The translations under genes and the position numbers were made by a program. A DNA stretch of 64,000 bases, taken from contig NZ_AOIJ01000051.1 of assembly GCF_000337175.1 (NCBI RefSeq), positions 148,777-212,776 on the forward strand, given 5' to 3'. This stretch comes from Natrinema gari JCM 14663. GTDB taxonomy: Archaea > Halobacteriota > Halobacteria > Halobacteriales > Natrialbaceae. Below are positions 57,492 through 62,507 of the stretch, in pieces (position 1 is the first letter of the stretch; every line of letters begins with the position of its first letter). The notes beneath the pieces were generated by a model. It saw only the letters and a program-made list of their open reading frames with translations. It was not told where the DNA came from and did not search any database.

Positions 57492-58346
57492 ATGGACTCG
57501 ATCGACGAAAAACGCGTCTACGGCGACCGCGAGGGTGCGATTACGGCCTACGTCACGAGCGGGATCGGCGTCGTCCGCGTCCGCGTCGCCGGCGACACCG
57601 TCGGCGAATTCGGACTTTGCGAGCGCTGTCACGCCCGCGACGTTACAGCGACCCGTGACGCCGTCGCCATCGCGACCGACGACGACGTTCGCGTCCACGC
57701 GCTCGAGGGCGGGAACGGGACCGACGACGAGACGTTCGTCGAAACGGGATTCGGCCCGGCGGTCGCCGTCGGCTACGACGACCGCGAGCTGATCGCCGCC
57801 GATCCGGACGGCCGCGTCGCGCGTCGAGCGGCCGGGACCGACGAGTGGACCACGCTCGAGGACGGGAGCGGTGCCACGGTGCGGGCGATCGACGGCGACC
57901 TCGTCGGTACCGATGACGGCGTCTACCGCGTCCACGGGAGCGGGCTCGATCACGCCGGACTGACCGACGTCCGGGACGTCTCGGCTGCCGGCGTGCCGCT
58001 GGCCGCCACCGCCGATGGCCTCTACAAACTCGGCAACGGCTGGATGGAACTCCTCGGAGGAGCCTTCGAGACCGTCGCGGCGGACCCGCGCTCGGAACCC
58101 GGACGACTCGAGCGCGCACACGCGGTCGCGGACGACACGTGCTATGAGTATCCGATCGACGGCGAGTGGGCACAGAGCGATCGCTCGAGCGACGCCATCG
58201 TCGGATTCGGGTACGGTGACACGGTCTACGCCGTCACGGCCGACGGAACGTTTCTCTCGGCGAGCGAGGGAGAATGGCGGACGCGGCTGCTCGGCGTCAC
58301 CGATATTACAGGGCTCGCCGTCCCGCCGCGAGGGCCGGAGCGCTGA
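57492..58346 (+). CDS. HVO_0234-like beta-propeller protein
   Basis: 284-aa protein made of short repeated beta segments (VRAIDGDLVGTDDGVYRV, AAGVPLAATADGLYKLGNGW), consistent with a beta-propeller. Corresponds to a conserved haloarchaeal family of unknown function (HVO_0234-like). Two Cys in LCERCHARD could bind a metal. Divergent from the hexomutase. Role unknown. Confidence 0.75.
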   Translation: MDSIDEKRVYGDREGAITAYVTSGIGVVRVRVAGDTVGEFGLCERCHARDVTATRDAVAIATDDDVRVHALEGGNGTDDETFVETGFGPAVAVGYDDRELIAADPDGRVARRAAGTDEWTTLEDGSGATVRAIDGDLVGTDDGVYRVHGSGLDHAGLTDVRDVSAAGVPLAATADGLYKLGNGWMELLGGAFETVAADPRSEPGRLERAHAVADDTCYEYPIDGEWAQSDRSSDAIVGFGYGDTVYAVTADGTFLSASEGEWRTRLLGVTDITGLAVPPRGPER

Positions 58347-58802: not shown

Positions 58803-59660
58803 ATGATCATCAGCGGATCCGCGTCGCAGTCTCTGGCCGCGGCGCTCGCACGCGACCTCGAGGAACCGCTCGCTGCCGTCGAGTACGACCGCTTTCCCGA
58901 CGGCGAACTGCTCGCCGCCGTCCCCGGCGTCGCCGAGGCCGAGCCGGAGCGGGCGGTGATCGTCGCCTCGACGGTCTCGAGCGACGCACACCTCGAGGTG
59001 CTCCAGTTGCAGGACGCCGTCCGCGAGGCCGGCGTCGAGGAGGTCGTCACCGTCCTGCCTTACATGGGCTACGGCCGGCAGGACGCGGCCTTCGAACCGG
59101 GCCATCCCGTCTCCGCGCGGGCAGTCGCGCGTGCGATTTCGACCGGGACGGACCGCGTACTGACCGTCAACCCGCACGAGCGAGCGGTCTGTGACTTCTT
59201 CGAGCCGACGGCGACGGCGGTCGACGCGGCCGGGCGACTCGCCGCTCCCCTGCCCGATGACCTCGCGGAGCCGGTTTTCCTGTCGCCCGACGCGGGCGCT
59301 ATCGAACTCGCCGAAACGGTGCGGGAGACCTACGGGGCGGGCGAGACCGACTACTTCGAGAAGACCCGCCGCTCCGGGACCGAAGTCGACATCTCGCCGA
59401 GCGACGTCGAGGTCGCCGGCCGCGACGTCGTCGTCGTTGACGACATCATCGCGACGGGATCGACGATGAGCGAAGCCGTTGCCGTCCTTCAGGAGCGAGA
59501 CGTCGGCCGGGTCTTCGTCACCTGCGTTCATCCCCTGCTGGCTCGCACCGCCGTCACGAAACTCTCGCGGGCCGGCGTCGAAGCAATCTACGGCACCGAT
59601 ACCATCGAGCGGGGCGTCGACACCGTCTCCGTCGCACCGACGCTCGGGGCACACCTGTAA
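58803..59660 (+). CDS. prs: Ribose-phosphate diphosphokinase (PRPP synthetase)
   Basis: 285-aa enzyme making PRPP from ribose 5-phosphate and ATP, needed for histidine, nucleotides and NAD. Visible motifs: N-terminal MIISGSASQSLAAALAR, the YMGYGRQDAAFEPGHPVS catalytic flexible loop, and the PRPP-binding VVVDDIIATGSTMSEA. Shorter than bacterial enzymes, as in archaea. Its product feeds HisG at 29051. Confidence 0.95.
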   Translation: MIISGSASQSLAAALARDLEEPLAAVEYDRFPDGELLAAVPGVAEAEPERAVIVASTVSSDAHLEVLQLQDAVREAGVEEVVTVLPYMGYGRQDAAFEPGHPVSARAVARAISTGTDRVLTVNPHERAVCDFFEPTATAVDAAGRLAAPLPDDLAEPVFLSPDAGAIELAETVRETYGAGETDYFEKTRRSGTEVDISPSDVEVAGRDVVVVDDIIATGSTMSEAVAVLQERDVGRVFVTCVHPLLARTAVTKLSRAGVEAIYGTDTIERGVDTVSVAPTLGAHL

Positions 59661-59681
59661 GTAAACGATTAAGTAGCCCCC

Positions 59682-59693
59682 AGACGCGCGTCT
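59682..59693 (+). promoter_or_regulatory. 12-bp palindrome upstream of the H-NOX-like gene
   Basis: AGACGCGCGTCT, perfect, followed directly by a CTAG word. It is 70-82 bp before ATG 59764 and about 20 bp after a TATA-like ATTAAGT (59669-59675), so it would fall in the initiator region of a leadered transcript. Operator role inferred. Confidence 0.35.
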
Positions 59694-59763
59694 AGTTGTT
59701 AGCGCGTGGCACGAGCGCGGCTCGGCCACACGAACCGTCGCGGAGAACGACCGGAACTCTCAG

Positions 59764-60303
59764 ATGCACGGAATCGTCCACAAGACCCTCAAGGAGTACG
59801 TCGTCGAACGGACCGACGACGGCACCTGGGACACGATCGTCGAGCAGTCCGGCTTCGAGCCGAAGCTCTATCTCCCCGTTTCGCACTACGACGACAGGGA
59901 AATCGACGCTATCCTCGAGACGCTCTCGACGATGGCGACGCAGGACCGTCGGGCGATCGAGCGCGACTTCGGGACGACACTCGCCCCGAAGCTGCTCTCG
60001 ACGTTCAGCGCCCACATCAAACGTGACTGGGACCTGCCCGAACTGCTCGCCGGACTCGAGGACGTCTACGACGACATCGAGGCCGCCACGGAGGACACCG
60101 CCCTTCCCGAACTCTCCTGTACGTCCGAGGCCGATCACGCGATCGTCAGCTACGATACCCACCGCGACCAGCAGTACTGCGGGCTCGCCCACGGCATTCT
60201 CGAGGGCGTCGTCGCCGCGTTCGGCGCGGACGCAGCGGTGACGGAAACGGCCTGCGTCGACGACGGAGCCGACGCGTGTCGGTTCCGCGTCGACCTCGAG
60301 TGA
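59764..60303 (+). CDS. H-NOX (haem NO-binding) family protein with altered proximal ligand
   Basis: 179-aa stand-alone H-NOX fold protein. N-terminus MHGIVHKTLKEYVVERTDDG and the FSAHIKRDWDLPELLAGLEDVY helix align with bacterial H-NOX. The residue aligned with the proximal haem His (H102 in Thermoanaerobacter) is Tyr102 (EDVYDDI). The haem-propionate YxSxR motif is kept as Y130-D-T-H-R134. The C-terminus has Cys164 and Cys172 (CVDDGADACRF), resembling V4R/H-NOX-like small-molecule domains. No kinase or cyclase is adjacent. It could bind haem through Tyr, another ligand, or no haem. Alignment is by eye. Confidence 0.78.
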   Translation: MHGIVHKTLKEYVVERTDDGTWDTIVEQSGFEPKLYLPVSHYDDREIDAILETLSTMATQDRRAIERDFGTTLAPKLLSTFSAHIKRDWDLPELLAGLEDVYDDIEAATEDTALPELSCTSEADHAIVSYDTHRDQQYCGLAHGILEGVVAAFGADAAVTETACVDDGADACRFRVDLE

Positions 60304-60410: not shown

Positions 60411-62507
60411 CTAGCTGCGCCGACGGCCCGCTCTCGCCCCGACGAACACGAGTGCGATCGCTATCAGCGCCGCCAACACGCCGAAGCCGGGCAGTTTCTC
60501 GCTCACTGTCGTCGGAGCGTCGCCGCCGACATCGACCGTTGTCGTTCGATCGCCAACGGCGACCTCGTACTGACCGTCCGCGTCGAACCAGAGGGTGGTG
60601 TCGACCGTCGTCGTCTCGCCGGGTCGAAGCGCCACCGGGCGTTCAGCGGCGACGCCGTCGACCGTCCGGAACGCGATGGGAGCCGCGGCTGGCCGATCGC
60701 CGGCAGCCGCGACCGTCGCGGTCGCCGTCACCGACTCGCCGGGTTCGATGCTGTCGGGCGCGACCTGCAGCCCCCGCACGGTCACGCTCGAGGGCGACCG
60801 GACGACTGCCGTCAGCCGCTCCGAGCCGACGCGGATATCGTATTCGCCTGGCTCGGGCGGCGTCCACGAGAGGGCGTGGGTCGCATCCTCGCCGGGCGCG
60901 AGCGTCCCCCGGCGGTGATCGACGACGCGGCCGTCGACCTGTAACGTCGCGTCGTAGGTCCCCTCGCGCTCGCCGACGTTGGCGACCGCGCTCGGAACCG
61001 TCACGGGTTCGCCGGCCGGCACCGCGATGAGCGTGCGGTCGTCGCCGTCGGTGCCGCCGGTTGCCGACGCCGACCAGCGCGGCCATTCTCGCTCGGCTAC
61101 GTCGATCGGCCCGGACCCCAGTCCGTACTCGAAGACCGCAACCGACTGCCCGAAGGCGGCCTCGTGTTCGCTCTGCGTCCACATGTCGGGCGTCTCCGCC
61201 GTCCGCGTGTACCGCTCCGCGGCCGCCCGGACCGCCGGTCCGCCTTCGTCCTCGAGCGCGTCCATGAACTCCGCCTCGGTCACGGGGTCCTCCTGGGCGT
61301 TCAGCGTCCGGAACACGTCCGCGAGCGTCCGATCACCCTCCGTCGCGAGCCGCAGCCGGCGGTCGAGCTCGCCGTAGACGAGTGCGCCCTTCGCGTAGTG
61401 GGTTTCCGGGTGGTCCCACGTCGACCGGTCGGCGAGGACGCCACCGGCGTACGGCTCGCGCTCGCCGCGCTCGAGGAGCGATCGGAAATCGTCGAAGTCA
61501 GTCGCGTCGCGCTCGAGGGCGAGCAGACCGGCGTAGTAGTCCGCCTGGCCCTCGGAAACCCACGCCACCGCGGGGTCGACCTCGGTCCCGTCGGCGAAGT
61601 CCTGGCGGATGTGGACGTACTCGTGGAGCCAGACCGGGTTCCGCTCGTCGAGCGCGGCGTCGTCGACGACCCACGCGTCCGACTCGCCGTACTGGAGTCC
61701 GCGCTTCGAGCCCCAGTCGATCTCGTTCGGCACCGCGACCACGAATACCTCGTCGTGCCGTGCGCCGACGGAGAGACGGTCGCGTGCGTCCGCGAGTGCG
61801 GTCAGTACCGCCTCGGGCGACGCTTCGAGCGTCGCGGCGTCGGGGACGGCCAGCCTGATCGTCCCGCCGTCGACGGGTCGCTCGTGGACCGTTACCGGGC
61901 CGAAGAAAGCGATATCGCCGCCGGTCGCGCCCGGGCCGTCGACGCGGACCGTCCGCTCGAGTCCGACGGGCGCGGTTCGCCGGTAGGAAAGCGACACGTC
62001 CGGAACCGCCACCACGCCCCAGTCGCCGGTATCGACGAACGTGTACCCCTCTCCGGAACCGTCCCCCTCCTGTTGGCTCCCCCGCCGCTCGGTCGGCATC
62101 GCGTACCGAATCGTCGCCTCGTCGGCGTCGCCGGTCCACTCGAACGTCCGTTCGTCCGTCCGCTCGACCCCCGCAGTCTCCGCGACGGTCGCGCCCGGCT
62201 CGAGTTCGATCTCGAGTCCCGTCACGGCCTCGGGGATGTGAACCGTCGTCTCCACCTCGAAGGTGTCGGGGTCGTCCTGCCGGTGGCGGAGGACGGTCGT
62301 CCGGGAGAGGATGTCATCGGAGTCGCTGCTCGCCGTCGACCCGGCACTCGTCCCAACCGAGGCGGGCGACTCGCCGACGGGCCCGATATCGATGCCGGCT
62401 GCCGACGGCGAGTCGTCCGCTCGAGACGGCTCCCCGGCACCGACACCGGCCGGCAGACTTCCGACAAGCAAGACGACGACCGCGAGGACGACGACACGGG
62501 AGTTCAC
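60411..62507 (-). CDS. Secreted PGF-CTERM metalloprotease-like protein
   Basis: 698-aa surface protein. Sec signal (VVVLAVVVLLVGSLPAGVGA). A beta N-terminal domain (about 65-190) precedes a metallopeptidase domain with H295-E-Y-V-H299 and a downstream E319 (SEGQADYYAG), a gluzincin (M1-like) arrangement with 19 residues between H299 and E319. CARDB-like and Ig-like beta domains follow (about 480-660). The C-terminus LPGFGVLAALIAIALVFVG then basic residues is a PGF-CTERM sorting signal, for archaeosortase ArtA, which replaces it with a lipid anchor. Substrate unknown. Confidence 0.83.
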   Translation of the reverse strand: MNSRVVVLAVVVLLVGSLPAGVGAGEPSRADDSPSAAGIDIGPVGESPASVGTSAGSTASSDSDDILSRTTVLRHRQDDPDTFEVETTVHIPEAVTGLEIELEPGATVAETAGVERTDERTFEWTGDADEATIRYAMPTERRGSQQEGDGSGEGYTFVDTGDWGVVAVPDVSLSYRRTAPVGLERTVRVDGPGATGGDIAFFGPVTVHERPVDGGTIRLAVPDAATLEASPEAVLTALADARDRLSVGARHDEVFVVAVPNEIDWGSKRGLQYGESDAWVVDDAALDERNPVWLHEYVHIRQDFADGTEVDPAVAWVSEGQADYYAGLLALERDATDFDDFRSLLERGEREPYAGGVLADRSTWDHPETHYAKGALVYGELDRRLRLATEGDRTLADVFRTLNAQEDPVTEAEFMDALEDEGGPAVRAAAERYTRTAETPDMWTQSEHEAAFGQSVAVFEYGLGSGPIDVAEREWPRWSASATGGTDGDDRTLIAVPAGEPVTVPSAVANVGEREGTYDATLQVDGRVVDHRRGTLAPGEDATHALSWTPPEPGEYDIRVGSERLTAVVRSPSSVTVRGLQVAPDSIEPGESVTATATVAAAGDRPAAAPIAFRTVDGVAAERPVALRPGETTTVDTTLWFDADGQYEVAVGDRTTTVDVGGDAPTTVSEKLPGFGVLAALIAIALVFVGARAGRRRS

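Follow-up and report, generated by a model that had tools for sequence, protein, structure and literature searches.

Our analysis of a 64,000-nucleotide stretch of the Natrinema gari genome (hereafter, the window) revealed a gene from a conserved haloarchaeal branch of H-NOX proteins that have lost the proximal histidine; this branch very probably neither relies on tyrosine ligation nor comprises canonical NO/O2 sensors. Canonical H-NOX proteins respond to NO by rupture of the Fe-His bond, which is followed by a shift of helix F and a rotation of the subdomains around a glycine hinge (PMC8196705, PMC7108781); a survey of 598 relatives of Vibrio H-NOX found the proximal His to be absolutely conserved (PMC7108781). 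In the open-licence literature, neither a description of a prokaryotic H-NOX family lacking the His nor any paper on haloarchaeal H-NOX was found. The His-less clade is a natural experiment that can show which H-NOX functions need no Fe-His chemistry, and annotations such as “heme NO-binding domain-containing protein” may be misleading for dozens of haloarchaeal genes.

Family Assignment and Predicted Structure

The His-less H-NOX (HNOB) gene occupies 59764..60303 on the forward strand, with ATG at 59764 and the stop codon ending at 60303, and encodes 179 residues. The Pfam search matched the protein to HNOB (PF07700) with E 3.3e-23 and a score of 82.8 bits (cut-off 25.5), over profile positions 1-162 of 163. 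All low-E PDB matches obtained by phmmer were H-NOX proteins, the best being that of Shewanella oneidensis (E 3e-10). A match to V4R (PF02830; 32.6 bits, cut-off 31) covers residues 135-176 only; it represents a C-terminal superfamily module in common, H-NOX being the better and full-length match.

The AlphaFold2 model, based on an alignment of 81 sequences, has a mean pLDDT of 92.2 and a pTM of 0.88. Its best PDB matches (Foldseek, VIA-align) are all H-NOX structures: S. oneidensis entries 4u9b (Z 23.1, the highest) and 4u99 (Z 23.0) superpose over 177 aligned residues with rmsd 1.9-2.0, and Nostoc H-NOX 2o09 scores Z 22.4. The weaker fold matches, the N-terminal domain of VirS (8rcw, Z 12.6) and TRAPP Bet3 (Z 9.8), are related folds with non-heme ligands and provide precedent only. 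An earlier note on this DNA, made from the letters by eye, had called the protein an H-NOX and proposed structure prediction and superposition as a check; both the Pfam match and the superposition confirm the identity, and Tyr102 matches the heme-ligating His, the register at this residue being based on sequence alignment together with the end-to-end superposition.

Within the genus the median dN/dS of the H-NOX gene is 0.27, with values of about 0.2 in comparisons with the nearest species and in the closest pairs; therefore, the gene is maintained. A pseudogene is ruled out by these values of about 0.2-0.3 and by near-invariant sites. No second HNOB gene was found in the N. gari genome, which rules out that the protein merely accompanies a canonical H-NOX in this organism.

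Loss of the Proximal Histidine

Tyr102 (codon TAC, 60067..60069, forward strand) lies opposite the proximal His of S. oneidensis H-NOX in the phmmer alignment and also in an alignment of 134 domains, where the register is anchored by the hydrophobic pattern of helix F; the by-eye placement of Tyr102 at the iron-ligating position was thus borne out. Homologs were searched for in a named genome collection and in three further sets, namely 61 relatives, 391 genomes from the class and 393 from the phylum (relatives of the window's genome include N. altunense, 94%, and N. pallidum, 93%). The searches yielded 133 distinct haloarchaeal domains, 129 of them near-full-length. Among the latter, 46 have His102 and 83 do not. 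The earlier note had left it to homologs to tell whether Tyr is conserved at this position, and it is not: the 83 His-less domains carry Tyr (46), Ala (11), Val (9), Thr (9), Ser (3), Arg (2), Ile (1), Leu (1) and Phe (1).

In the maximum-likelihood tree (LG+C20, 130 domains, rooted by midpoint) the His-less and His102 sets are split by one branch with support 100/96, and a single change of the His102 label suffices in all bootstrap trees examined. Judged from the tree, His102 was lost once, in the common ancestor of the haloarchaeal His-less branch. Loss is the natural direction, since S. oneidensis H-NOX and the other archaeal H-NOX proteins (L177-L184) have His. Tyr102 is common in the early-branching His-less lineages and was swapped for other residues several times later; within Natrinema the position is also occupied by Ser, Thr or Ile. 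Outside the haloarchaea, no His-less H-NOX was found among the best eight phylum matches (L177-L184), all of which have His102 and lack the Cys site described below.

The earlier note had allowed for a lone mutation. This, as well as a sequencing error, is ruled out by the 83 family members without His102, and the homologs with His are paralogs that make up a clade of their own and have other gene neighbors. It had also been conceivable that another His takes the proximal place, but none is conserved between residues 92 and 111 of the His-less clade, which excludes a replacement in helix F. The iron-ligating His, a hallmark of heme-based gas-sensing H-NOX, is absent from 83/83 clade members, and the suggestion of an unusual archaeal signaling protein deprived of its heme ligand holds at the level of the clade.

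Conservation of Helix F, Clamp and Pocket

Conservation was compared after redundancy removal, the two clades being nearly equal in mean identity (0.46 and 0.44). The biggest drop in the His-less clade relative to the His102 clade falls on helix F (residues 96-108), the minimum of all 13-residue windows. The distal subdomain, in contrast, is better conserved in the His-less clade (0.90 vs. 0.59 for residues 35-39, and 0.69 vs. 0.46 for residues 69-84).

The YxSxR propionate motif survives as YxTxR, as the earlier note had seen, in the form Y130-D-T132-H-R134 (Tyr130-Arg134, 60151..60165, forward strand). Together with His2 (59767..59769, forward strand), which is invariant in both the His-less (83/83) and the His102 (46/46) clade, it forms a carboxylate clamp, His2/Tyr130/Ser-Thr132/Arg134, which is complete in 76/83 His-less domains. 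In Nostoc and human H-NOX, where residue 2 is Tyr, this residue and the Y-S-R motif hold the carboxylates of heme mimics (PMC6225106). Two further histidines on the same strand are frequent: His6 (59779..59781), the hallmark of the His-less clade (79/83 vs. 0/46 His102 domains), and His84 (60013..60015; 78/83 His-less and 33/46 His102 domains). Ten pocket positions were tested in the His-less domains; eight (5, 9, 73, 77, 105, 117, 141, and 145) are hydrophobic in 83/83 and the remaining two in 98%. Gly70 (83/83), Gly144 (82/83), and Pro115 (79/83) are kept as well. An O2-sensing type of H-NOX was rejected, as neither clade has Tyr at the Tyr140 position. The His-less H-NOX of Natrinema hispanicum CDM_6 (L030 / L103) matches residues 1-20 and 43-179 only, the gap in its N-terminal half being either a deletion or an assembly fault.

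Putative Three-Cysteine Zinc/Redox Site

Three cysteines encoded on the forward strand, Cys139 (60178..60180), Cys164 (60253..60255), and Cys172 (60277..60279), have the same numbers as the zinc ligands of S. oneidensis H-NOX, where the set is completed by His161 (PMC7108781). All three are present in 72/83 His-less and 46/46 His102 domains. Instead of the His or Gln of a fourth zinc ligand, the N. gari protein has Glu161; this residue is Lys in 17/29 Natrinema-clade copies, and Lys or Arg in about half of the His-less clade (by weight). DmpR does bind zinc through a Glu, though at another spacing (PMC7264223). The V4R cysteines of MsvR (C206/C232/C240; PMC3729527) and DmpR (C151/C177/C185; PMC7264223) are spaced by 26 and 8 residues, vs. 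25 and 8 in the N. gari protein.

Signaling through such cysteines is known: heme-free H-NOX of Vibrio cholerae is activated by Cys oxidation (PMC7108781), and in Caulobacter the NO form of H-NOX is inactive, Cys oxidation being the signal (PMC12329717). By analogy, redox control through the cysteines of the haloarchaeal protein is plausible. The earlier note had proposed it for Cys164 and Cys172, both of which do belong to the known redox/zinc site, although the third member, Cys139, was overlooked.

Clamp and three cysteines are both complete in 65/83 His-less domains, and no domain lacks both. Seven sequences are without a full clamp, and all of them keep the Cys site. Conversely, one or more of Cys139/164/172 are lost, with the clamp kept, in L032, L035, L107, L108, L115, L131, L139, L149, L151, L160, and L162, which represent several separate lineages. 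In view of these losses on both sides, neither the clamp nor the Cys input is universal.

Proposed Function and Alternative Explanations

In the reading that we prefer, which is tentative and somewhat less probable than an even chance, the His-less H-NOX would take a pocket ligand and the Cys site as its inputs. The Fe-His102 lever on helix F was dismantled once, in the common ancestor, and with the Fe-His bond unable to form, helix F is free to vary; the fold itself would have been preserved to serve a different input. The pocket could still hold a carboxylate-bearing hydrophobic ligand without a proximal iron bond, the candidates being heme or another tetrapyrrole in the first place, and another lipid-like or aromatic acid in the second. 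The rotation of the subdomains about the glycine hinge may then be driven by the bound ligand, by oxidation of the zinc site at Cys139/164/172, or by both. Alternatively, the clamp might owe its conservation to a structural role, an Asp44-Arg134 contact between the subdomains, with the pocket empty.

A heme-free redox sensor, in which Cys139/164/172 bind zinc, oxidation rearranges the site and the heme pocket is vestigial, seems rather unlikely. The exact coincidence with the S. oneidensis ligand positions, the parallels in V. cholerae and Caulobacter, the nearly identical Cys spacing in MsvR and DmpR, the V4R match and a weak match to the MsvR model argue for it. However, 11/83 His-less members have lost at least one Cys while keeping clamp and pocket, the fourth ligand position is so often basic, and the presence of all three cysteines in every His102 domain leaves the loss of His unexplained by this site. 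The scaffold alternative, a non-heme, ligand-free, partner-binding protein, has its precedent in animal guanylate cyclase, where the H-NOX domain of the human alpha subunit lacks the His and binds no heme (PMC8196705), and an interface might account for the distal half (35-39, 69-84) being more conserved than its His102 counterpart. We consider it improbable, as several families maintain YxSxR, His2, Pro115, and a hydrophobic pocket, none of which is needed if the pocket is empty.

Retention of heme has been considered in two forms. The tyrosinate-ligated heme of the earlier note hardly seems credible: Tyr102 is found here and in 46/83 members, most early-branching lineages included, but it has given way to the other residues listed above many times, with no other signs of decay, and because of this variation Tyr ligation cannot be the mechanism of the family, although an individual protein might still use it. 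Transfer of the axial ligand to His6 on helix A or to His84, which would give a ligand-swapped H-NOX, agrees with the clade-specific distribution of His6, the frequency of His84 and the retained propionate clamp, and a site-swapped globin is known (PMC4476040). It is nevertheless doubtful, since residue 6 would point, by helical wheel, about 80 degrees off the pocket-lining 5/9 face, and the earliest-branching member, L037, has Phe6, so that His6 was probably gained after the loss of His102.

Comparison with Known Proteins

The N. gari protein shares fold, length, YxSxR, Pro115, the Gly hinge, an apolar distal pocket without Tyr140, and Cys139/164/172 with the canonical NO sensor SO2144 of S. 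oneidensis (PDB 4u99, 4u9b). Unlike SO2144, it has no proximal His, helix F is relaxed, His2 and His6 are located on helix A, and the gene has prs as its neighbor, with no histidine kinase or chemoreceptor beside it. The His102 haloarchaeal paralogs (e.g., L040 and L084), which occur in the same genomes in many Natrinema, have His2, the clamp and the Cys site too, but they differ in the invariant His102, the conserved helix F, the absence of His6 and the neighborhood, with MCP at 29/46 loci and never prs. H-NOX proteins of V. cholerae and Caulobacter (PMC7108781, PMC12329717) have three cysteines at the same positions and signal without the need for Fe-NO chemistry; however, they keep the proximal His, can bind heme and act on HnoK.

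Animal soluble guanylate cyclase provides, in its alpha subunit, another natural H-NOX without the proximal His (PMC8196705). This H-NOX is a domain of a large heterodimer, its pocket being filled by an N-terminal extension, whereas the N. gari protein is stand-alone and keeps both pocket and clamp. V4R domains (MsvR, DmpR/PoxR), whose input is redox or a small molecule, resemble its C-terminal half with the same three-Cys site, but the N. gari protein has no DNA-binding or AAA+ domain and is similar to H-NOX over the full length.

Gene Neighborhood

The upstream neighbor of the H-NOX gene is prs (58803..59660, forward strand; TIGR01251, E 2.7e-76), encoding ribose-phosphate diphosphokinase (PRPP synthetase). 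It is found directly upstream, on the same strand, in 83/87 His-less loci, including those from other families of the order, and in 0/46 His102 loci; the gap is mostly 80-240 bp in the His-less loci, and about 100 bp in N. gari. A same-strand chemoreceptor (MCP) gene accompanies 29/46 His102 loci vs. 1/87 His-less loci, the MCP counts being lower bounds, as some loci span only 1.5 kb on each side. This contrast suggests that the His-less and His102 proteins work in different systems. No adjacent kinase, cyclase/phosphodiesterase or MCP gene, the usual partner of a gas sensor, was found at the N. gari locus.

The steady link to PRPP synthetase is a concrete lead to the output of the His-less H-NOX, which might, with less certainty than the proposed inputs, concern the supply of the nucleotide precursor PRPP rather than chemotaxis. 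A fuller version, in which a tetrapyrrole or heme sits in the old clamp, is coordinated by His6 and/or His84, has the cysteines as a second input and reports the heme/redox state to PRPP synthesis, is very unlikely. By-eye comparison of upstream regions identified two conserved elements in the interval that separates the H-NOX gene from prs: a TATA-like element, AAACGATTAAGTAG (59663..59676, forward strand; conserved in Natrinema), and, downstream of it, CTAGTTGTTAGCGCGTGGCACGAG (59692..59715, forward strand; most Natrinema species), which may be an operator or belong to the leader. Given these two elements, the H-NOX gene may have a promoter of its own. With some 100 bp between the two genes and a seemingly separate promoter for H-NOX, the prs adjacency may represent an inherited gene order without functional coupling, and it need not mean that the genes are co-transcribed. 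Fusion of H-NOX to prs was rejected: the long upstream open frames (e.g., in L019) are overlapping frames, and prs is a separate ORF.

The conserved gene order comprises genes for a phosphoglucomutase-like protein, a propeller and often a small lipoprotein, followed by prs, H-NOX, a peptidase-like gene and ileS. In the window, the propeller is an HVO_0234-like beta-propeller (57492-58343; PF23366, E 7e-108), conserved upstream, and the peptidase-like gene (60414-62507, reverse strand) encodes a putative secreted protein of 698 residues with a CARDB domain, a weak PGF-CTERM-like tail and an HEYVH (HExxH) motif; it converges on the H-NOX gene in most relatives. In L036 and L168, which belong to one genus of family f7, the His-less H-NOX follows an SPFH/band-7-like gene and not prs, with a glycosidase-like gene behind. 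Tandem His102 H-NOX pairs followed by a same-strand MCP gene were observed in L060, L062, and L085, from some other families of the order.
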